Part shown: positions 6,231 to 17,293 of the stretch, piece by piece
Position numbering within the stretch: position 1 is the stretch's first letter
How the letters are laid out: each line of letters begins with the position of its first letter
Assembly (NCBI GenBank): GCA_903936705.1
Contig: CAIZWN010000029.1
Coordinates: forward strand, 1 to 48,447
Direction: 5' to 3'
Length of the DNA: 48,447 nucleotides
From: an uncultured Myxococcales bacterium
Lineage (GTDB): Bacteria; Myxococcota_A; UBA9042; DTJE01
Position numbers and translations under genes: made by a program
The notes under the pieces: generated by a model
Told to the model about the DNA's origin: nothing
Databases searched by the model: none
What the model saw: only the letters and a program-made list of their open reading frames with translations

Positions 6231-7379
6231 CTACCCAGGCAACTGTCGTTGCCTGACTCGCAATTCTGCCAGTAACAATTGCCATAGTTGCATAACAGCA
6301 TTCCGGATTCCTGGAATTCCGGGAAGAGGGTAAAGCCCAGGAAACCTGCCTTCGGTCTTGGTTCGGATGGTTGACAATGAGCCCGTTCTAAGAAGATGCA
6401 GCATCTGGCGCAGTCGAAGGGCGTTGCGGTAGTCCGTATCAATCGATCCTGATACGACATGGGCTAGCAGTCGGCCAGTTGCGGACGAAGTTGGTGGTTG
6501 CCTTCCCGAAACCAGGAACTCCACCAGTTCAATGACGGCAATAATCTCACCACGCGATACCGAGTTTCCGACAAATTGAGAGATCTTCATAAATGAATCC
6601 CGGCAATCTGCGACATCGCCCAGCATCCGCATAGGTGGATATCGATCTGCACCGAAGCCATGATCGACAAGTCCGTGAACGATGGCGTGAGCCGCAAGGA
6701 AAGAAGCGGCCGGGACAAAAGAGTCGCCCGGTAGCGAAGGTATCCGTTCAAGAAGGCCGTGGCGCGCCAGGTCTTCAAGAACCACCGATCCAGCGATATC
6801 AGGTACGGTGCACCCGGGGATTTCCAGGTGAATCTCAACCGGGGGATCGCGTCCTTCGGCCAGGGGCTGCAGGTGGTGTTCGGATCGCGACGGCCCGAGC
6901 GGCGAGAATCCAGATGTCATCAGGGTGCGGTGAAAGGCCAAGGCAAGTTGCCGAGGAACCAGCACGTCCACATCGGAGGCTGGCCGGGATGCAACTCCAG
7001 TCCTGTTCGACAGATGCAGCGCAGCCCCCTTCAAGAAAACGATTGGTATGCCGTTCCTGGCAGCAACTTGCGACACGCGATCTGAACTGCGCAGGATTCG
7101 AAGCGCCTGCCGGGCGGCCGCACTTCGATCTGCCAGGGCGGCCTGCAGGCCGGTTGTTCCAAGATCCAGCAAAAGCCTGGAACCTGGAATTCGTGATGCG
7201 ATGCGACCAAGCACGTCAAGCTTGCGCGCCAAGGTAATTGCGTCAGAACTATCCGGGGGAGGCGAATGGCTGGAGTCCGGCGAGGCGTATGCTCGATGCA
7301 GCACCCACGAAAGCTCGGCTGAATGCACCAGGGGTGGTGGGTTGAATCGGCAATCACGCGTCGAAGTGGGTCGCTTCAA
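6231..7379 (-). CDS. nucleotidyltransferase-family protein (NTP_transf_5-like), last gene of the peptide-modification operon
   Basis: The product is a 382-aa protein resembling the uncharacterised nucleotidyltransferase family often found beside PqqD-like and HPrK-like genes in peptide natural-product clusters. Visible motifs are FLKGAALHL (residues 115-123), the metal-binding SDVDVLVP (135-142, Asp136 and Asp138), and VEIHLEI (181-187), a candidate for the third acidic position. Start TTG 7379 has AGGAGGG five bases upstream and overlaps the preceding stop as TTGA. The family's reaction is not established; transfer of a nucleotidyl group to peptide or sugar is a guess. It is the last gene before the convergent phosphoesterase. 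Confidence 0.8.
   Translation of the reverse strand: MKRPTSTRDCRFNPPPLVHSAELSWVLHRAYASPDSSHSPPPDSSDAITLARKLDVLGRIASRIPGSRLLLDLGTTGLQAALADRSAAARQALRILRSSDRVSQVAARNGIPIVFLKGAALHLSNRTGVASRPASDVDVLVPRQLALAFHRTLMTSGFSPLGPSRSEHHLQPLAEGRDPPVEIHLEIPGCTVPDIAGSVVLEDLARHGLLERIPSLPGDSFVPAASFLAAHAIVHGLVDHGFGADRYPPMRMLGDVADCRDSFMKISQFVGNSVSRGEIIAVIELVEFLVSGRQPPTSSATGRLLAHVVSGSIDTDYRNALRLRQMLHLLRTGSLSTIRTKTEGRFPGLYPLPGIPGIRNAVMQLWQLLLAELRVRQRQLPG
6236..6255 (-). terminator. hairpin at the end of the operon (weak terminator candidate)
   Basis: CAGGCAAC and GTTGCCTG form a perfect 8-bp stem with a 4-nt loop, inside the last codons of the nucleotidyltransferase gene and 27 nt past the convergent phosphoesterase stop. 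No U-tract follows on either strand, so intrinsic termination is uncertain. Confidence 0.3.
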
Positions 7380-7870
7380 TGGACCCTCCTGCCTATGACG
7401 CGGCGCAGGTGACTCCGTGCTGTTTCAGGCAGGTGGGCCCATAAGGTGCGCTGCGTCCAGCGCATCACAGGAGCCGTCCTCCTCCCAAAGGCCAGCCAGG
7501 CCCGAAAAGCCGGGTTTTCAGTGCGAATCCATATGCCCATCCAACCGATTCGGGTGACGATTCCGATGATGGAGTCGGCAGGCGTCCTGGGGTCGTCATG
7601 GTTTGCCCAGAGACCTCGTGTAACTATCGAAAAAGGCTCGGCCTGCGATCCTAGCCCGGCCACGACGTGGCAGATCGGAGTGTCTCCAAGACGAACAGCC
7701 ACCAGATCGCCGCATGCCGCCGCGCCAGTTGATGGATCTCGGATCTCGATATCTGCGCCGGGCAGAACGGCCGGAAGAAGGCTGAAACCGGCCAATCGGA
7801 ATCGCCGGCGCCCAGTTGTGGCAGGTTCGTTTCGAATCCGCGATGCCTTGCCGGCGGGGACAGTCATCAT
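7376..7870 (-). CDS. S24/S26-type peptidase-like protein (S26B signal-peptidase pattern)
   Basis: The product is a 164-aa soluble protein with the layout of an archaeal/ER-type (S26B) signal peptidase: GFSLLPAVLPGADIEI places Ser30 where the nucleophile sits, CHVV places His68 where S26B enzymes have the general base, and TRGLWANHDD (84-93) matches the family's TKGDNNxxDD, although the first Asp is Leu. No membrane anchor is visible, unlike true signal peptidases. Similar short proteins occur in lasso-peptide and PqqD-associated clusters, where leader cleavage has been suggested. The start ATG 7870 overlaps the radical SAM stop as ATGA; ATG 7867 is the alternative. It may be a cytosolic leader protease, or may have lost catalysis. 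Confidence 0.72.
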   Translation of the reverse strand: MMTVPAGKASRIRNEPATTGRRRFRLAGFSLLPAVLPGADIEIRDPSTGAAACGDLVAVRLGDTPICHVVAGLGSQAEPFSIVTRGLWANHDDPRTPADSIIGIVTRIGWMGIWIRTENPAFRAWLAFGRRTAPVMRWTQRTLWAHLPETARSHLRRVIGRRVH

Positions 7871-8913
7871 CCGTTCCCCACGTTCCTGGAACGCAACTGG
7901 CCCAACACTCGCGTCCACATCCGGGCGTTTTCGCATGCGGTCGTGTAGGGGGCGGTGGGTCGGCCCGAAAAAATCTCGGATTGACCAGGACAGAAATCGC
8001 ATGTCACCAGATGCTCGCAAACCATACATTCGTCGCGATCGGCATTCTTGATTGCGCGGACGCTGGCCAACTCGGGGGACTCGACGAACGATGCAAGGCC
8101 GCCTGGATCTGCAATGTTTCCAAGAACCTTTGGCCATGCGACACACGGGCTGATATCGCCTTTGGGGGTAACATAGAGTCGGGTATGTCCCGCCGAACAA
8201 GGGGCCGACAATGGCTTTACAGGACGAGGTTCCATTGGTGCGGTGTCGGTGAAATGGCTATGAATCGAGGCCATTCGGGTCTCTTCATCCAGTTCCGTAC
8301 ATCCAGCTGCCTGGCCGTCGCGACGCCTGAGAATCGTACTGGATTCCCTGAACCGGCAGCCGCGTTCCTGCGCCCATCGCAGCAGCATTCCACCGTCCTC
8401 GGGAATTCCCTCGACAAGACTTCGCGTCACCCTCACCGGCACGTTCCGCCCCCGCAGCGATTCAATCGCAGCCGCAGCCCTGTTCCATGAACCCGGGAGA
8501 CCGGTGAACGCGTCGTGAACGTGTGGTTCAATCGAATGCAGGCTGATGTCAACCATGATCCAGCCCAGATCCGCGAACAAATCAACAGTCTGCTCGGTCA
8601 GAAGAATTCCGGTTGTCTTGACCAGAACTGCAAACCCTCGCGATCGGGCGGCTTGCAGAATGTCATTGAAGTCCCTTCTGATCATCGGTTCGCCGCCCGA
8701 CAAGACGACCTGGGCGATCGCCAGTGACTTTGCCTGGTCAAGTACCTTTATCCAAGCCTCCTTCGATAGTTCATCGGCATGACTACCGACAAGATAGCAA
8801 TGTGGACAAGTCAGAGGGCACCGCCAGGTCAGGTCAATGTGAAGAAGGAACAGACGATGACAATCGAGGTACCGGTTCTCCAGGGCACGCAGCACCGTCC
8901 ACATGTCGTTCAT
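7867..8913 (-). CDS. radical SAM/SPASM peptide-modifying enzyme
   Basis: The product is a 348-aa radical SAM protein. The SAM-binding cluster motif CPLTCPHC gives Cys32, Cys36 and Cys39 (CX3CX2C), and LSGGEP lies at 72-77. A complete C-terminal SPASM set follows: Cys239-x17-Cys257, then CX2CX5CX2C (Cys296, 299, 305, 308) and Cys327, enough to hold two auxiliary Fe-S clusters. Such enzymes install thioether, C-C or other crosslinks on ribosomal peptides (PqqE, sactisynthases, MftC). The likely substrate is the Cys-rich peptide encoded two genes upstream, with the separately encoded PqqD-like protein as recognition partner. ATG 8913 overlaps the HPrK-like stop as TAATG. The precise bond formed cannot be read from sequence. 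Confidence 0.9.
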   Translation of the reverse strand: MNDMWTVLRALENRYLDCHRLFLLHIDLTWRCPLTCPHCYLVGSHADELSKEAWIKVLDQAKSLAIAQVVLSGGEPMIRRDFNDILQAARSRGFAVLVKTTGILLTEQTVDLFADLGWIMVDISLHSIEPHVHDAFTGLPGSWNRAAAAIESLRGRNVPVRVTRSLVEGIPEDGGMLLRWAQERGCRFRESSTILRRRDGQAAGCTELDEETRMASIHSHFTDTAPMEPRPVKPLSAPCSAGHTRLYVTPKGDISPCVAWPKVLGNIADPGGLASFVESPELASVRAIKNADRDECMVCEHLVTCDFCPGQSEIFSGRPTAPYTTACENARMWTRVLGQLRSRNVGNG

Positions 8914-9734
8914 TAAAAATCCAGCATCGGCCATGGGGAATGTTCAAGCGGAAGACCAAGACGGGTAACTCCGTGGTTGCGAGCCAGTCGCAAGGATGTG
9001 TCCATCACGCGCTCGCGGATGGAAAAGGCTGCGTCCGTCATGAAAGCGCGAAGTATCAAGCTGGAAAGGGCCTCGGCCGTCGAAAGCCTGGCCGTGAAAG
9101 CCTTTTCACCTTTGACGAGATCAACAATCATTGCAAGCGGAGCCGCAGGTCCCTGAGCCTGGAGCTTTTCGCGTCCGGGAAAAGGCGAAGGCACAACCCA
9201 GGGACCGGCGCGTCCAGGAACAACCAGCGTCATGTCATCCGCCAGCGAGTTTCCAAGGGAGTGTCCCTTGATCAACGTGGTCTTGCCGCCGCCAGACGGG
9301 GACAAGAATATATACGCACCTGACGGCCGGGCGACGGCTGCCGCATGCAGCGCAATGCCTCCAAGTGCCAGCAATGCTTCTGTGACGAAGTGGCGGAAGA
9401 ATTGCTGCAAGCCGTAGGTGGCAATAACCTGAGATTGATTCGTCGCCAGCGTGACCGATACCGAGTCGAGACCGTTTCCCTCTGCGATCCACAGCGGATC
9501 TTGACCCATTCTCCATGCACCCTTGGCCGGGTCCCCTTCTCGGACAAAGCGGCGTTCTGACGTAAGTGTCAGCTTTGATTCATAAAGGCAAAGTCGCGTG
9601 CTAACGTGTGCCTGAAATTCCAAGGGGTCGGCGTGGCGCGCTGGCCATCGTAAGGCAAGACCATCAACTGCCAGTTGCAGCAGATCGGTTGACGCGTTGA
9701 TCCCGAATAGGATCGGGCCGGTCCGAAGCTGCAC
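8913..9734 (-). CDS. HPr-kinase-like (HprK-related) ATP-binding protein
   Basis: The product is a 273-aa protein whose C-terminal half matches the HprK/P kinase core: LHAAAV (His130), Walker A SPSGGGKTT (145-153), and LADDMTL with Asp166/Asp167 where HPr kinase has its VADD motif. It lacks the full HprK N-terminal domain and there is no ptsH nearby, so an HPr regulatory role is unlikely. In paeninodin-type lasso clusters a related kinase phosphorylates the precursor, and that role fits here: the adjacent precursor has several Ser/Thr in its core. GTG 9734 is chosen because it overlaps the precursor stop as TAGTG, with GGAG seven bases upstream; TTG 9755 is an alternative, adding seven residues. 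Confidence 0.82.
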   Translation of the reverse strand: MQLRTGPILFGINASTDLLQLAVDGLALRWPARHADPLEFQAHVSTRLCLYESKLTLTSERRFVREGDPAKGAWRMGQDPLWIAEGNGLDSVSVTLATNQSQVIATYGLQQFFRHFVTEALLALGGIALHAAAVARPSGAYIFLSPSGGGKTTLIKGHSLGNSLADDMTLVVPGRAGPWVVPSPFPGREKLQAQGPAAPLAMIVDLVKGEKAFTARLSTAEALSSLILRAFMTDAAFSIRERVMDTSLRLARNHGVTRLGLPLEHSPWPMLDF

Positions 9735-9907
9735 TACGGTGCTCCGGAGTCGCAACCGCTGCCCTCGTCAATGCATGTTCCGCAAGTACACGATGCGTAC
9801 AGAACGGCCTTGTCAATCGGCTGATTAGTGCGCACCTGAGGCCGGGTGTATGTCTTCCGGTCGGTCTGCTTCGGTTGGAACTCTTCTTCCTTGTCTTGCT
9901 GGTCCAT
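9734..9907 (-). CDS. 57-aa Cys-rich peptide, candidate RiPP precursor
   Basis: This small gene sits in the only gap of the operon. ATG 9907 has GGAGG nine bases upstream and starts 14 nt after the lipoprotein stop; TAG ends at 9734, where the kinase gene starts. The N-terminal half is charged and Cys-free (MDQQDKEEEF...), with Y20-T-R-P23-Q-V25, resembling the YxxPx(L/V) leader element bound by PqqD-like recognition domains in lasso and related RiPPs. The last 18 residues hold all four cysteines: SCTCGTCIDEGSGCDSGAP (Cys40, 42, 45, 52; spacing CxCx2Cx6C). Context (PqqD-like protein, SPASM enzyme, kinase, peptidase) makes it the likely modification substrate. Cleavage site and crosslinks are not determinable. 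Alternative: a small Fe-S or metal-binding protein. Confidence 0.8.
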   Translation of the reverse strand: MDQQDKEEEFQPKQTDRKTYTRPQVRTNQPIDKAVLYASCTCGTCIDEGSGCDSGAP

Positions 9908-9921
9908 GGGTCATTGCCTCC

Positions 9922-12900
9922 CTAGTACAGAATTGTAGCGTACCCGGAACCGTTGGTACCGACCAGGAGGTCCGGGAACCCGTCGTCGTTGAAGTCGCCG
10001 ATCGGGTACGCCCCGAAGTATCCGAACTTCAGCCCGGTCTGGTCAATAGGATCTACAAGAGCCGGCGATCCATATGGCAAAGTACCGTAATCGAAGCTGC
10101 CAGCCGGGTCTTTCAGGTTCCGGCGGATATGAACCTTGCCGTTGACTGCGGACGCTGCCATGACATGGACCAGGTCGACGGAAGGGCCATTCGGGTCGTC
10201 ATCGAAATTCCCGATTGGAATTGCGCGTTCGAAAGAGCCTGCAATGACAAGTCCCCTCTCGTTGCCGAGGATGTCAGTCCCGACTACAGGTGTGGCATTG
10301 ATCTGTACCGTCTGGCCGAATTGCGTTTTCAGGTAACCTCCACGGAAGATGAAGATTGTCTTGTTCTGCGGAAATACGAACGGGGTTGCCGCAGAATGAG
10401 TGACGACGATCTCGGGAGAATTGTCCCCATCGAAGTCGTAGCGCCCCGCAATCGAGGTAGCTCCGAAGTTTAGGGCGGCGTTCGGGGCATCAGGCGCCAG
10501 TCTGATGACCGTCAGGTTGTCGCGTCCGCCCGATGTAACTGCGACAGAGATGTCCGTCAACCCGGTGAGGGCGCGTCCCTTGATCACCAGTACCTGCGAG
10601 GGGACTGCATAGGTGGATACTGCCGCCTCGTCCATTCCGTCGCCGTCGATGTCGCCGACAAAGGCGACGCGTGTTCCAAAGCGAGTTGATGCATCGCCAT
10701 CGGTCATCATCAAGGGGACGATGCCGTGCGCTGTGCGGACGTCCGCGTCCGACAGGTTGATTGCCAGATTGGTCGCCGCCGTCCATGAACTGTTGCCAGG
10801 GACCATGTATACGATGCTATTGGCCTGCGAGCCGACCAGCAGGTCCCCGACGCCATCGCCGTTAAAGTCGCCGCCTCCGGCCGTCGAGACTGCTGCCAAG
10901 GACGACTGGATTCCAGTGAACGTCAGATTCGGCAGTGCCGCCAAACGACCACCTGCAACACCGAACCAAACCTTCATCGTCTGGTTTGGTGTGGTGCCCT
11001 CCCCGACTAGAAGGTCTTCAACCCCGTCATGGTTCAGGTCGCCGCCGCGTTCCACGGGGATGCCAAAGTTGCTGCCAGTTGCTCCCGAGAGGCACTGGTG
11101 GCTTGGACCTGTAGCAGCAGAGATAATCAACGGCGGAATGGTTTTATCCTGGCCAGATGAGTTTCCATAGACGATGCAGAATGTGTTGGCCATCGTGCCA
11201 GTACCGCCGCCGCCCAAAGCAATGTCGCCCCGGCCATCGCCGTCAATGTCGCCAACCCAGGCAACGCGCTTGTTCATCAGGGGATCGTTGAACGGGGCTA
11301 CCGACCCGCTGATGTTTGCATATCGCAATGCGACATCGACGTCCATGAAGCTGGACGCAACAAGCGGAGAAACGTTGCCTACTGCATCTATTGCCCTGAC
11401 TGCGAAGGCGTAGTTGGTTTCGTTGTCATTCGTGCCCGGGATGAACTTGCACGGGGTGCCATTCTCGGTGACGTTCGGATTCCGGACGTCTGGGCCGGTG
11501 ATTGTGATGGACTCGGCCGAACCGGGGGCTGCCGGAACCGGGACCGCGGCCGTGTAGGCAAGCCCTGCAACGCTGCATGCGCGAGCGAACTCGGCATCGC
11601 TGGTTATGGGCAGCGGGGAATAGCGGATGTCATAGCTGGTGGCAGGAACGCCAGTCGTTCCGTTGTCCGCCACGGCAGCCCATCGCAGGGTGACCGCCGG
11701 TCTGCGCCGGTTGAGGTCGGCTGGGGCAAGTGTCTCGAGGGTCGGCGATGCCGGAGGCTGAAGATCGACCTGTGCCGTGAATGAAGACGTAGCGATGTTC
11801 CCGGCCGCGTCGGTAACGCTGATCGAGACCGTGTCATTCGACTGGTCAGGCAGCGTGGCATCGAGGTCCAGCGTGGTCGGAGATACCGACAGGGCATAGG
11901 GCAGCGAAAGATTCGATGTCGGGATCGACTGTGCGCCCATTACCAGGGCATCCATCGTCCCACCCATCAGGTTTATGTCCGTTGCCTGCACTGTAAGTGT
12001 GCGCTGCAGCCCCGGAGTGCCTGGGACTTTGTCCGCCGTAACGCCCCATTTGTTGGCTGATCCTGATGCCGGCGCGGTGAAGCTGACCACCGGATCCTGC
12101 AAGTCAACGATGCGCGTTAGGGCGCCCGACGAACCAGCCGGCGTCGATCCATCGATTGCCTGTGCCTCGAAGCTCGGGGTGGTTCCGTTGTCCACTGTCA
12201 CCGTGAATGTGGCAACCCAATCGACTATCGGCTTGTCCTCGGTGGCCACGATCGTGCCTCCGATTGTCTTGGTCAGACGGGCAGTAGTGGCCGCTGCGCA
12301 GGCGGCCGAAACGTTGACGGTGACCGATATGGAAGCCGTCGGGCAGTTGGTTCCAGGTGTCGGGCAGTGCTGGTTGTTGACGTACTGACCCGAACCAATA
12401 CCGGCAACTCCAACCTGGCAATTGACCAGGTTCAACGTCAGGTTGGCCGAGGCCGATCCCTGGTTGCCCGCGCTATCGGCAACCACGGCGATGACCTTGA
12501 AATACGAAGTTGCAGTCACCGGCAGGGTCGGGAACACCGAGGGCTCAAGTCCGCCCGCATTGGTGATTGCTCCCTGGGCAATCCTGGTCGGCGGGTCGCA
12601 TGTCGTGAAGGTTGCGTCGCAGTTCAATGCCAACTGGATCTGCCAGCCAGAGCCATCCAGACTGTCGGTGCCCAGGGAAACCTCGATCTGGAATCCCGGC
12701 ACCAAAGGCTGTGCGTCGTCCGAGTCGTCCAGGACCAGACCAGAAACGGGCTTGTCGAGAACAACGTTTGGCACGATGGTGTCCACGGTGACCGCCCGCG
12801 TTGCCGATGCCGGATTGCCCGCCTCGTCCGATACGGTGACCTCAAGGGAATGATTGCCGTCCGTGAGGATCGGCATGCTGGTAAACGGGAATTTTGCCGT

Positions 12901-15900
12901 CATCTCGGCATCGACAATAGCGGTCCACTTCTCGATGCCGCCATCCAGAAGAACGACCGTCCGGCCGATGGCGTCCGAATGGACCACGACATCAAGCAAA
13001 TCTCCGGCCCGGACAAAGGCGCCAGCGGGGTCGGCGATCGACAGTGTCGGCGCCAGTGTATCGACAGTGGCATTGTAGTAGACCACCGACTCGGACTGCG
13101 GCAAGGCGCTGTAGTTGCCCACCAGGTCCCTGACCTTCGCGTAGACCTGGTTTTCACCTTCGTAAAGCGTGGTGTTCACCAGGGCGTCGCCTGTAAAGGT
13201 AGTCAGCGTGGAGGCATCCAGCCCGTTGACAACCAGGGTCAATTCGCCTGGCTCGGAGGCAACGATCTTCATAGAGAAGACCCGATCAGCAGCCAACTGT
13301 TCCGCAATATTCAGTACACCCGTGGGTGGCAAAATGTCCGATGGACAAGACAGTTCGGATACAACCGGGGCGACGGTGTCCTGGAAGATGTAGCGGAATT
13401 GTTCCTCTGCCACGGGACTGTCGGCCGAAGAGGGCCATGGCTGTCCCTGGGCAAGGCGGCCTTCGGCAACAAGGGTGTGGGATCCGTCCAGCAGACCGTT
13501 CACCACGACCGACGTGGAAGTCGAGCCGTAGTTGGAAACAAGGGCCACCTGCCTGTATCCCTGCGTGCTGCAGAGGGGGCCGCTCAGTCCAGGGCGGTTG
13601 CTGCAAATACGGAGGTTATCGATCCCGGGGGGGAGTGCCGAAACCGCTACCATCACGTTCCTGGCGGTCTCAATACCCCATGGAGTAGCGCAGAATCCAT
13701 CGGCGCACACGGCACTTGCAGCGCACGGCAACACCGAGGAACATGCGACGCGATTCACGAACGTCGGCGAAACCAGACGGACCACGGGTCTGCTGACGAT
13801 CACGTCTACGAGTCTGGTCAGCGAACCCTGGTTGCCGGCCGAATCGGCCGTCCGGGCGGTCAACGTATACGTACCGTCCAGCAACGTGGCTTGTGGCAAT
13901 GTGATCAACTGTGCGGTTCCATCAGGCACTGCCATGGTTAATGTCGTCTGGACCTGGCCAGGTTCACGGCCTGCAGTTTCGTACACGACGGTAACGACGC
14001 TGCCTAGTTCGAGGCCCGACACGATGACCTTGAAAGTGAATTGCAGACCAGGAACGGCCGGATCCGGGGATTCGTCGAACGAGTAAGTCAGCGAGTCGAT
14101 GGTCGGGTCCGGTTGCTGGAAGGACGCGATCACGGGCGCAATACGATCGACACTTACCGTAATTGGCTGGGCGCTGGCCGACTGGCCGGCCAGGTCCGTT
14201 GCGGCCGCGTCCAATGTGCACGACGACTGATCGGACAGCAATACGTTGTCAAACTTCAGAACGCCTGTCGCGTCGGCTGAGCCGTTGTACACGATTGTTG
14301 AGGTGCCGCACGTGACCGTCAGTTGGCCTGTCGAGTCCTTTTCGAGGTTCTGTCCGTCGACGAGGACGTCGATGATGCAGTCCAGGCTTCCCGGCAAGCA
14401 TGCCGTGGTCAAGAGCGATATGGATTGGTCGCTGGCTGGCACCCTGAAGGTCAACACTGGCAGGCTGTCCTTGAAGCGCAGCACGCGCGGGGCCGAGAAG
14501 CCCTCGTTGCCGCCTACCGTGGCACTGGCTACAAAACTCTGAGGAGTGGTTGTCAGTACGTCAATCGAGATTGTTGCGATGCCATTGGAGTCTGTGGTCA
14601 GCGGGTATTGGGTTGTGCCATCGACCGTAAGCGTGACCGGCAAGTCCGCCTGTGCGACGTCGGCAACGTCGGTGACGCTGATGGCAAGGTCGAAAGGCAG
14701 AACGGCAATGGGGCCGTTCTGAGCCGGGGTGATTATGCGAACCCGCGGTCCGGACAATATCAGTTGAATGGTTCGCGCGACGGTTGCCCCGACGTTCCCG
14801 CCGGTGTCGGTTGCCTGGGCAGACACTTCGTTATTTCCGGGGATCAGGGTGACGCCAGGGAAGGTCGCAACCGATGCGTCTGGCGCCATGGTCTGGCATG
14901 AGCGGTCACCGTTCACGGTAAGGCACACGATTGTTCCCGGGCCGCCGCCGGAAAGAACCGTGACTTCAATCGTGGTCTGGTAGCCAGGAGCGGTTGCGTC
15001 CTGGTCTGCTTCCAATGGGTTCCCGCCCGCAGGGTCCAGCGTGCCGGTCCCGGGCGAGGTGATGACCACTTCCGGTGCAGCCGTGTCCAGCGTAAAGGTT
15101 GTTCTGGTAACGCTGGCCGGATTGTCGGAAGCCAGGTTCCCGAACACGTCAACAGCATCAGTGTAGAGGGTCCAAACGCCATCAGGCAGGGGTTGTCCGC
15201 CGACCAGCAGCGGCAACGTAAAGACCAGACCGTCGTTCCGTATGGGGCTTGCGGGCGTGAACAACAATACCTCCAGGCCCCCCTGGTCCAGAATACCAAT
15301 AGTCGGCACGACGTCGTTCAGGCTGGAAGTACTCAGAACCACAGGAATACTTGTGCTGTTGACAAAGGATCCTTCGGCCGGCCTAAGAATGTCCATGACC
15401 GGGGCAGGAAGGCCGACCGTGAATGCGACCTCGCTGGAACGGGAAGGGTTGGCAGCATCGTCGATGACCTGGCAAATCAGCGATGTATTCCTGGTCTGTA
15501 CCGAAAGGGAAATAGGCACAGTGTACTGCCCGTCCACCGAGGGGGTATCAACCAACAGAGAACCGACGTTTACGAAGGGCGTGCCAAAGCGGCCCTCGCG
15601 ACAGCGGACGGTCATTGTTGTTCCGGAGGTAAGTCCTTCATTGACGATCACGGCCGTCGTCTCGTAGATCATGGGAGTCGAAGGGTTTCCGTCATTCTTG
15701 GCCAGCAGGACTTCGCCTGCCATCGGCGAGACCAGAACGATTGTTGCCGTGGTTACGAGGGCCGTGAACTCGCGCTCGACGGTGCCAATGCGGCCACATG
15801 AATCCGACGCCTTTGCCACCAGTTTGTAGACGCCATCGATGGTGATGCCGAGGTCGTTTACTTGCCACTGGCCGCTGATTGCGTCCGGTTGCGGCGTGCC

Positions 15901-16965
15901 TGCGACTTCCGACCTGAAACTGACCTCCACTGGTTCGCCCGCCTTCGCGCCGGTGACGGTTCCGGATGTGTTGAACGTCAGGCCGTTCGATGGATCTGCA
16001 TCATTGTCGTCCTTCAGGGTCAGGACGGCCTTGGACGGTTGGTCGATGGTCAACACCGGGTCAACCAGGTCTAGTACGAACGGGAGATCCGCCGTAGAAG
16101 CAGCGCGGCTGGGTGATGCCGTGTCCGAGACCTCGGCCGACACCTGGACCGTCACGCCGTCCACCCCGTCGGTGTGATCCAGCAAGGTCACGCGAATCTT
16201 GGTCGATCCTGTAGAGGCAAGTGATGACGGATCGCTGAATATGGAGTTCCCGTCGGACGTTACCTTGATTCGTGCCGTCGTGCATGTGCGTTCAGGGTTG
16301 GATACGATGAAATCCACCTGAAAGCCTGGGGTGGTCGGGTCAACGTCGGCCAGCAGGCAGGACGTGTTCGTTGGCAACAAGACAATGCCGCAACTTCCGA
16401 TATCGACCTTGGCGATCTTGGTAACCTCGCCGCTGGCCTGCTGCAGGTTGGTAGCCTCGGCCTTCACTTCATAGCCGGTGGTGTTGTTGGTCATTACGAT
16501 GTTCGTGAATTCTGCCGTTCCGATACCTGAGGTTTCATTGACCACAACATTTACGGTCGATACGAGGTTGCCCGCCACGAACAGGCGGACGGCTGCGCCG
16601 TTCTCCAGGTTCTTTGAGGTGATCGTGATATCCATCTGGAACCCGGGGCTGTCCAGGTAGGCGGTTGGTTCGTCTTCCTTGAACAGGCTTACTTCGGCCG
16701 TGTCCGCGCCCTTTGGACCTGACGCCGTGTTGAACACCATCGTTAATTCGGGCGTCAGTGGGACATCGGTGGCGTCGTCGGGCGTCAAATCGGCGTCTGA
16801 AACAGTGTCAACATCCGGAAAATCTGGGGAATCGACCGTATCGACGTCGAGAGTGTCATCAACTGGAGTGAGGTCGGAGGCCGAGTTGCCGATTGTTCCG
16901 CCGGCACAGGCGCCGCCTGAAAGAATCAGAACTACAAACAATAATTCCAATGACTTACGATTCAC
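9922..16965 (-). CDS. giant Ig-like repeat / FG-GAP surface lipoprotein (2347 aa)
   Basis: The signal segment ends in LSGGAC, a degenerate lipobox with Cys20 as possible lipidation site. A linker rich in Asp, Thr, Val and Pro (about residues 30-70) follows. Residues 75-1735 are a long series of roughly 90-130-residue Ig-like domains recognisable by recurring joints such as DTAAPEVVITSP, DRIAPVIAS and VDTIVPNVVL. Next is a fibronectin-III-like stretch (about 1735-1877), then FG-GAP/integrin-alpha repeats (about 1880-2347) with calcium-binding loops DIDGDGRGD, DLNHDGVED, DFNGDGVGD, DIDGDGMDE and DFNDDGFPD, probably a beta-propeller. It should be an outer-surface adhesion or binding protein. GTG 16965 overlaps the PqqD-like gene by 11 nt, with GGAGG six bases upstream. 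Why it belongs to a peptide-modification operon is unknown. Confidence 0.9.
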   Translation of the reverse strand: MNRKSLELLFVVLILSGGACAGGTIGNSASDLTPVDDTLDVDTVDSPDFPDVDTVSDADLTPDDATDVPLTPELTMVFNTASGPKGADTAEVSLFKEDEPTAYLDSPGFQMDITITSKNLENGAAVRLFVAGNLVSTVNVVVNETSGIGTAEFTNIVMTNNTTGYEVKAEATNLQQASGEVTKIAKVDIGSCGIVLLPTNTSCLLADVDPTTPGFQVDFIVSNPERTCTTARIKVTSDGNSIFSDPSSLASTGSTKIRVTLLDHTDGVDGVTVQVSAEVSDTASPSRAASTADLPFVLDLVDPVLTIDQPSKAVLTLKDDNDADPSNGLTFNTSGTVTGAKAGEPVEVSFRSEVAGTPQPDAISGQWQVNDLGITIDGVYKLVAKASDSCGRIGTVEREFTALVTTATIVLVSPMAGEVLLAKNDGNPSTPMIYETTAVIVNEGLTSGTTMTVRCREGRFGTPFVNVGSLLVDTPSVDGQYTVPISLSVQTRNTSLICQVIDDAANPSRSSEVAFTVGLPAPVMDILRPAEGSFVNSTSIPVVLSTSSLNDVVPTIGILDQGGLEVLLFTPASPIRNDGLVFTLPLLVGGQPLPDGVWTLYTDAVDVFGNLASDNPASVTRTTFTLDTAAPEVVITSPGTGTLDPAGGNPLEADQDATAPGYQTTIEVTVLSGGGPGTIVCLTVNGDRSCQTMAPDASVATFPGVTLIPGNNEVSAQATDTGGNVGATVARTIQLILSGPRVRIITPAQNGPIAVLPFDLAISVTDVADVAQADLPVTLTVDGTTQYPLTTDSNGIATISIDVLTTTPQSFVASATVGGNEGFSAPRVLRFKDSLPVLTFRVPASDQSISLLTTACLPGSLDCIIDVLVDGQNLEKDSTGQLTVTCGTSTIVYNGSADATGVLKFDNVLLSDQSSCTLDAAATDLAGQSASAQPITVSVDRIAPVIASFQQPDPTIDSLTYSFDESPDPAVPGLQFTFKVIVSGLELGSVVTVVYETAGREPGQVQTTLTMAVPDGTAQLITLPQATLLDGTYTLTARTADSAGNQGSLTRLVDVIVSRPVVRLVSPTFVNRVACSSVLPCAASAVCADGFCATPWGIETARNVMVAVSALPPGIDNLRICSNRPGLSGPLCSTQGYRQVALVSNYGSTSTSVVVNGLLDGSHTLVAEGRLAQGQPWPSSADSPVAEEQFRYIFQDTVAPVVSELSCPSDILPPTGVLNIAEQLAADRVFSMKIVASEPGELTLVVNGLDASTLTTFTGDALVNTTLYEGENQVYAKVRDLVGNYSALPQSESVVYYNATVDTLAPTLSIADPAGAFVRAGDLLDVVVHSDAIGRTVVLLDGGIEKWTAIVDAEMTAKFPFTSMPILTDGNHSLEVTVSDEAGNPASATRAVTVDTIVPNVVLDKPVSGLVLDDSDDAQPLVPGFQIEVSLGTDSLDGSGWQIQLALNCDATFTTCDPPTRIAQGAITNAGGLEPSVFPTLPVTATSYFKVIAVVADSAGNQGSASANLTLNLVNCQVGVAGIGSGQYVNNQHCPTPGTNCPTASISVTVNVSAACAAATTARLTKTIGGTIVATEDKPIVDWVATFTVTVDNGTTPSFEAQAIDGSTPAGSSGALTRIVDLQDPVVSFTAPASGSANKWGVTADKVPGTPGLQRTLTVQATDINLMGGTMDALVMGAQSIPTSNLSLPYALSVSPTTLDLDATLPDQSNDTVSISVTDAAGNIATSSFTAQVDLQPPASPTLETLAPADLNRRRPAVTLRWAAVADNGTTGVPATSYDIRYSPLPITSDAEFARACSVAGLAYTAAVPVPAAPGSAESITITGPDVRNPNVTENGTPCKFIPGTNDNETNYAFAVRAIDAVGNVSPLVASSFMDVDVALRYANISGSVAPFNDPLMNKRVAWVGDIDGDGRGDIALGGGGTGTMANTFCIVYGNSSGQDKTIPPLIISAATGPSHQCLSGATGSNFGIPVERGGDLNHDGVEDLLVGEGTTPNQTMKVWFGVAGGRLAALPNLTFTGIQSSLAAVSTAGGGDFNGDGVGDLLVGSQANSIVYMVPGNSSWTAATNLAINLSDADVRTAHGIVPLMMTDGDASTRFGTRVAFVGDIDGDGMDEAAVSTYAVPSQVLVIKGRALTGLTDISVAVTSGGRDNLTVIRLAPDAPNAALNFGATSIAGRYDFDGDNSPEIVVTHSAATPFVFPQNKTIFIFRGGYLKTQFGQTVQINATPVVGTDILGNERGLVIAGSFERAIPIGNFDDDPNGPSVDLVHVMAASAVNGKVHIRRNLKDPAGSFDYGTLPYGSPALVDPIDQTGLKFGYFGAYPIGDFNDDGFPDLLVGTNGSGYATILY

Positions 16966-17257
16966 TTTTGTCCTCCAGGACTATTCTCTCGAGAACTTCC
17001 CGTGACAGCAGGTCATCCAGGAAGGTTCCTACATCGGAAGGTACGTCCAGGTCTTTAGTGTCGAACTCCTTGCCAACGGCGGTCACGATCTCGTCCAGCG
17101 ACCTAGGGGGGGCATCCTTCAGATATCCAAGGATAAAGCCTCCAACCGGGTCCGAAACGGTGTGAAAGGCGCTGTCGGCCGACAGCAGAAAATGCTGTTC
17201 GTCCAAAGACCTATAGACGACATCCTTCCGAAAACGGAAAAGTGGATGATATTCCAT
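16955..17257 (-). CDS. PqqD-like peptide chaperone / RiPP recognition element
   Basis: The product is a 100-aa standalone PqqD-family protein. The pattern is typical: an N-terminal strand region (FRFRKDVVYRSL...FLLSADSAFHTVSDP) followed by helices with SLDEIVTAVGKEFD and DVGTFLDDLLSREVLE, the winged-helix fold that holds precursor leader peptides and hands them to radical SAM enzymes. It is the first gene of the operon, and its partner enzyme lacks a fused recognition domain. ATG 17257 is preferred over TTG 17293, because the TTG lies inside the predicted -35 box and the spacing from the -10 box puts the transcript start at this ATG, giving a leaderless or nearly leaderless mRNA. Confidence 0.88.
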   Translation of the reverse strand: MEYHPLFRFRKDVVYRSLDEQHFLLSADSAFHTVSDPVGGFILGYLKDAPPRSLDEIVTAVGKEFDTKDLDVPSDVGTFLDDLLSREVLERIVLEDKSES

Positions 17258-17264
17258 AGGCCGA

Positions 17265-17293
17265 AGAATAGCTGACAGGGGTGTAACCGTCAA
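17265..17293 (-). promoter_or_regulatory. sigma-70-type promoter of the peptide-modification operon
   Basis: On the minus strand TTGACG (17293-17288) is followed after exactly 17 nt by TATTCT (17270-17265). The first ATG of the operon starts eight nucleotides past the -10 box, so transcription would begin on or next to the start codon, and no Shine-Dalgarno is present before it. The 84-nt gap after galT contains only this element. Confidence 0.6.

Follow-up and report, generated by a model that had tools for sequence, protein, structure and literature searches.

What does a seven-gene operon make when it encodes both a giant lipoprotein and a 57-residue Cys-rich peptide, and what have the two products to do with each other? 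The operon lies in the window, a stretch of 48,447 nucleotides from an uncultured bacterium of the phylum Myxococcota. A sequence-only reading had taken it for a radical SAM RiPP pathway. RiPP clusters are usually regarded as patchy and dispensable. We compared the operon with loci of related genomes, and we consider it probable that it belongs to the core operons of an uncultured class of Myxococcota and that it makes a modified peptide of RiPP type along with a giant partner in the envelope.

Layout of the operon

The seven genes are tightly joined on the minus strand, from 17257 to 6231 of the window (ORFs read from the sequence), in the following order:

16955..17257, minus strand: PqqD-like stand-alone RiPP recognition element (Pfam PqqD above cut-off; ORF from TTG 17293)
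9922..16965, minus strand: 2,347-aa lipoprotein with Big_13 Ig-like and C-terminal FG-GAP repeats (Pfam, full-length orthologs)
9734..9907, minus strand: 57-aa precursor peptide, Cys-rich (leader profile E 7.2e-10, the peptide itself being in the training set; position consensus from 38 tails)
8913..9734, minus strand: HPrK/PEPCK-superfamily kinase with a GTG start (motif residues, weak NCBIfam matches, predicted fold)
7867..8913, minus strand: radical SAM enzyme with a SPASM domain (Pfam Radical_SAM and SPASM above cut-off; invariant Cys)
7376..7870, minus strand: S26B-type (SEC11-like) serine peptidase domain (alignment, profile search, AlphaFold model)
6231..7379, minus strand: NTP_transf_5 nucleotidyltransferase-like protein, a family-restricted accessory (Pfam PF14907; adjacent homologs in L033-L036)

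All seven ORFs of the compact operon described in the sequence-only reading were confirmed, and its account of 1-11 nt overlaps with one 14-nt gap held when the junctions were checked in the sequence. The PqqD and giant genes overlap by 11 nt, and 14 nt separate the giant gene from that of the peptide. Peptide and kinase genes share 1 nt (TAGTG; kinase GTG at 9734), as do kinase and SPASM genes (TAATG; ATG at 8913), and overlaps of 4 nt join the SPASM gene to the peptidase gene (ATGA, 7870) and the latter to the NTP_transf_5 gene (7379). From the sequence, the PqqD-like protein most likely starts at ATG 17257 (100 aa) rather than at TTG 17293, and the starts of the kinase, SPASM and peptidase genes lie later than the raw ORF list gives. 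Promoter and terminator scans of the operon region returned sites no commoner than in shuffled sequence, with 3 promoter-like sites observed and 3.2 expected by chance. A promoter-like TTGACG-17-TATTCT (17293-17265), not above chance, stops 8 nt short of the ATG at which PqqD probably starts; a transcript from it would thus be nearly leaderless.

The precursor family and its candidate enzymes

The 57-aa peptide carries a leader (...KTYTRPQVRTNQPIDKAVLYAS) followed by a Cys-containing tail (CTCGTCIDEGSGCDSGAP), and the leader consensus across loci is Y-x-x-P-x-[VIL]-x-[ST]...L-[AGS]-S. Among 38 distinct tails, Tyr was found in 32 (otherwise Trp or Phe), Pro in 37, [VIL] in 36 and [ST] in 33, with Leu at +16 in 30 and a small residue (A/G/S) at +17 in 29. 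Every tail contains Cys, 1-4 per core and a single one in 10 of the 38, and the first Cys follows the aromatic residue at a distance of 18-27 residues (mean 20.8). Mean pairwise identity is 29% in the leader against 10% after the first Cys, so that the core is hypervariable; Lys, Arg, His and Trp hardly occur in the cores, which have almost no basic or aromatic residues.

A leader profile trained on 30 small ORFs was run against 20,290 ORFs. In nearly all loci that are not cut off it picked one ORF, at the expected place, with chance matches beginning at E of about 1, and it also matched loci outside the training set (L047, L048, L052, L055, L057, L064, L081, L094, L103 and L105). Between L035 and L036, the last 32 amino-acid codons of the small ORF differ at 10 synonymous and 0 non-synonymous positions, a pattern in which purifying selection is visible. 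Because the profile selects one ORF per locus and the differences are all synonymous, the small ORF is not a chance reading frame. The peptide matched no NCBIfam family; a Pfam match to Cactin_mid (E 0.011, 15.9 of 23 bits) fell below cut-off and was taken as chance.

The PqqD-like protein scored 25.0 bits with Pfam PqqD (cut-off 23.4; the genome-level match was 25.6 bits), and by sequence it would provide the leader recognition element (PqqD/RRE) expected of a radical SAM RiPP pathway. In most of the class's intact loci its ortholog precedes the giant; in a few loci, mostly where the contig ends, it was undetected. The genome also holds a second PqqD-like gene (L053:10226-10615; G000:C8 about 95226-95615), above the Pfam cut-off and beside peptidase-like genes, and no radical SAM enzyme of the operon's SPASM family was found near it.

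In the kinase the P-loop reads GGGKTT; His130, Lys151 and Thr153 are invariant, and Asp166 is near-invariant. Its nearest NCBIfam models, ScmC, HprK_rel_A and HprK_rel_B, were all matched below cut-off, weakly but consistently, and the predicted fold was nearest to PEP carboxykinase and then, lower down, to HPr kinase. P-loop, catalytic His and Asp, and predicted fold place the protein in the HPr kinase/PEPCK superfamily. The SPASM enzyme has a CX3CX2C motif and C229, C247, C286, C289, C295 and C298, and its radical SAM and auxiliary Cys are conserved among homologs. All ten aligned SPASM enzymes of family f6 (L042, L044-L046, L048-L050, L054-L056) carry Phe-His at the last SPASM Cys (...YTTACENA in the window), possibly a change of auxiliary-cluster ligand.

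The window's peptidase has no Pfam match of its own and was assigned through an alignment profile, of which the best solved relatives are SEC11C and SEC11A (SEC11C at 2.4e-8). Ser30 and His68 are invariant in the alignment, no Lys is conserved, and no transmembrane segment is apparent. Its AlphaFold model (pLDDT 86) matched LexA, SipA and SEC11 at modest E-values. A Ser/His pair instead of Ser/Lys, within a SEC11-like domain, assigns it by sequence to the S26B-type signal peptidases. The NTP_transf_5 protein scored 55.9 bits with PF14907 (cut-off 31.2).

Distribution across the class and the giant lipoprotein

We searched for the SPASM enzyme in 90 relatives, found orthologs at the level of genus, family and class, and compared the neighbourhoods of the loci fetched around these matches and of 31 further loci. 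The SPASM ortholog was present in 40 of the 52 genomes of the class (E <= 1e-60). The order PqqD, giant lipoprotein, precursor, HPrK-like kinase, SPASM enzyme, S26B-like peptidase is conserved across the class. The proposed check, which asked whether a small Cys-containing ORF co-occurs with these genes, was thus positive: beside the gene of a peptide-type SPASM enzyme there is one for a conserved small precursor. No homologous locus of the class lacked both the peptide and the lipoprotein, and the two genomes with a SPASM enzyme and no giant (G006 and G012) keep the precursor. The idea of a seven-gene unit stood for six of the genes; because NTP_transf_5 homologs at the corresponding place are confined to the window's own family (L033-L036), the conserved unit comprises six.

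The giant has a lipobox (...SGGAC, Cys20), Big_13 Ig-like repeats and C-terminal, integrin-alpha-like FG-GAP repeats, and matches integrin alpha-IIb weakly. Its orthologs are full-length and 27-60% identical to the window's protein, with the lipobox Cys conserved and further Cys near-invariant; the ORF at its position in relatives' loci is about 2,320-2,560 aa long. Of the 52 class genomes, 43 have it in single copy, in a few cases divided between contigs, and a search of 38 other Myxococcota genomes at E 1e-40 found no ortholog. In the class the SPASM gene adjoins the giant except where the contig ends: in G008, G023, G030, G033 and G049, where the giant has no adjacent SPASM gene, its downstream end lies near a contig end, and G033 has a SPASM fragment at the contig edge near the giant.

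Both giant and SPASM enzyme were found in 38 genomes, the giant only in 5, the SPASM enzyme only in 5 and neither in 42 (Fisher p 2e-14, a value inflated by relatedness and obtained with a SPASM cut-off outside the class that differed from that within). Trees of the two proteins both recover families f1, f6 and f9, with deeper branches not all resolved, and this agreement points to largely vertical inheritance, unlike that of a patchy antibiotic cluster. Collectively, comparison of the loci establishes conserved order, leader, variable Cys-containing core, orthology of the giants and shared inheritance.

Downstream of the cassette, many class members have a TPR lipoprotein and a LysM protein (L072:11869-13907 and equivalents), and the neighbourhood itself thus looks conserved. 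L073 and L096 have recA-like genes upstream of those for the kinase, SPASM enzyme and S26-like peptidase; the giant is absent there and PqqD undetected.

Known systems, proposed pathway and alternatives

The operon shares a SPASM radical SAM enzyme and a Cys-containing precursor with sactipeptide and ranthipeptide systems, to which it adds a stand-alone PqqD, an HPrK-like kinase and a giant lipoprotein; a crosslink like theirs is here inferred. By the names of the NCBIfam models, the HPr-rel-A system pairs a PqqD-family chaperone with an HPrK-related kinase and the GeoRSP system pairs one with a SPASM enzyme, as here, but the operon scored far below their equivalog cut-offs, and HprK_rel_A and PqqD_rel_X were not found together above cut-off. 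The SynChlorMet cassette is similar in that ScmC was the nearest named relative of 12 of 14 kinases and that ScmE and ScmF were among the SPASM models matched, but all scores were far below cut-off (ScmC 21.3 of 125 bits, ScmE 83 of 400); the open-licence papers searched held nothing relevant on this cassette. They likewise held nothing relevant on FG-GAP proteins with radical SAM enzymes or RiPPs, or on SPASM enzymes with a lipoprotein and a precursor, and the pairing of the giant with these peptide-maturation genes was found described nowhere in them. Since only open-licence papers were covered, this absence is weak evidence of novelty.

Taken together, the conserved cassette and the precursor family support the radical SAM RiPP pathway proposed earlier, with the chemistry drawn from sequence. 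The operon is best read as a known kind, a radical SAM RiPP system, in which the precursor family, the S26B-like peptidase and the fixed giant lipoprotein partner are new. PqqD would bind the YxxPx[VIL] leader and present the peptide, and the SPASM enzyme would crosslink the core through a thioether or a C-C bond, probably by way of the conserved Cys. The kinase may phosphorylate Ser/Thr of the core, to which, in the window's own family only, the NTP_transf_5 enzyme would add a decoration on the phosphate. The soluble Ser/His peptidase would cut near L-[AGS]-S, leaving a core of roughly 8-22 residues. The finished product may then serve at the cell envelope in concert with the giant, either as a ligand or in a structural role, and not be released as an antibiotic. 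Only gene order and shared inheritance suggest this link between giant and peptide. More tentatively, the mature radical-modified, phosphorylated peptide could belong to the giant itself, built in as a ligand or as a covalent element.

Several findings run against this pathway. The cassette encodes no exporter and the peptide has no signal sequence with which to reach an envelope protein; the peptide may be exported by a system encoded elsewhere, or it may act in the cytoplasm. In roughly one tail in four, a single Cys is present and a conserved acceptor is missing; the kinase's matches to named models of the HPrK type are weak, and the window's peptidase has no Pfam match of its own.

The hypervariable core behind a conserved leader, and a surface-anchored lipoprotein in the same operon, would also suit a secreted signalling or antagonistic RiPP, exported by an unlinked transporter, with the giant as its receptor or immunity protein. 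We regard this as unlikely: the cassette is near class-wide, single-copy and tree-congruent, unlike patchy bacteriocin loci, its cores are almost without Lys, Arg and Trp, and the flanking genes that recur, identified only in part, include no recognised exporter. Distribution and core composition disfavour a bacteriocin in particular.

Alternatively, the giant could be an unrelated structural protein sharing a promoter with a peptide pathway that works alone, for instance towards a cofactor-like product. The enzymes are indeed kept without the giant in loci from other lineages (L059, L063, L064, L065, L073, L096 and L105); at L064 and L105, in the genomes G006 and G012, kinase, PqqD, SPASM enzyme, precursor and peptidase are all present. 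Yet in class members the gene of the giant is an internal one of the operon, with PqqD on one side and the precursor on the other, and in other families of the phylum L057 and L052 each encode a divergent, shorter lipobox/FG-GAP protein that adjoins a precursor and matches the giant's profile (E 9e-47 and 7e-54, respectively). Independence of the giant therefore seems improbable to us. At L064, a C25-family (gingipain-like) peptidase (6555-9845) stands in the giant's stead beside the S26-like peptidase; near the C-terminus of this surface protein a hydrophobic stretch precedes a cluster of Arg.

Phosphorylated lasso peptides (paeninodin, Bradymonas bsf, pseudomycoidin) have in common with the operon a YxxPxL-type leader, a PqqD-like B1, an HPrK-like kinase and a nucleotidyltransferase (PMC8498205, PMC10368454), with precedents for YxxPxL leaders and a B1-assisted kinase in Bradymonas (PMC10368454) and for tailoring by kinase and nucleotidyltransferase (PMC8498205). 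A lasso-like cluster that lacks its cyclase is nevertheless very improbable and was rejected: as the sequence-only reading had noted, cyclase and B2 protease are absent (no Asn-synthase-like cyclase among the seven ORFs, no Transglut_core3 match in the genome, which is 96% complete), the operon has a SPASM enzyme, an S26B-like peptidase and a giant lipoprotein instead, and in the cores of the precursors a pattern of Gly1 with Asp/Glu8 is not conserved.

In summary, we favour a RiPP-type peptide made alongside its giant envelope partner. Since nearly the whole class has the cassette and its inheritance is largely vertical, to call it a "secondary-metabolite cluster" is probably mistaken; its presence in most genomes of the class, in single copy and built around the giant, points to a physiological role of the modified peptide at the envelope. 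The probable leader peptidase is of an unusual type (soluble, S26B-like, Ser/His), and a defined precursor family with its enzyme set can now be tested directly by co-expression. If the peptide is built into the giant, a RiPP pathway would equip a structural surface protein throughout the class, rather than yield a released natural product.
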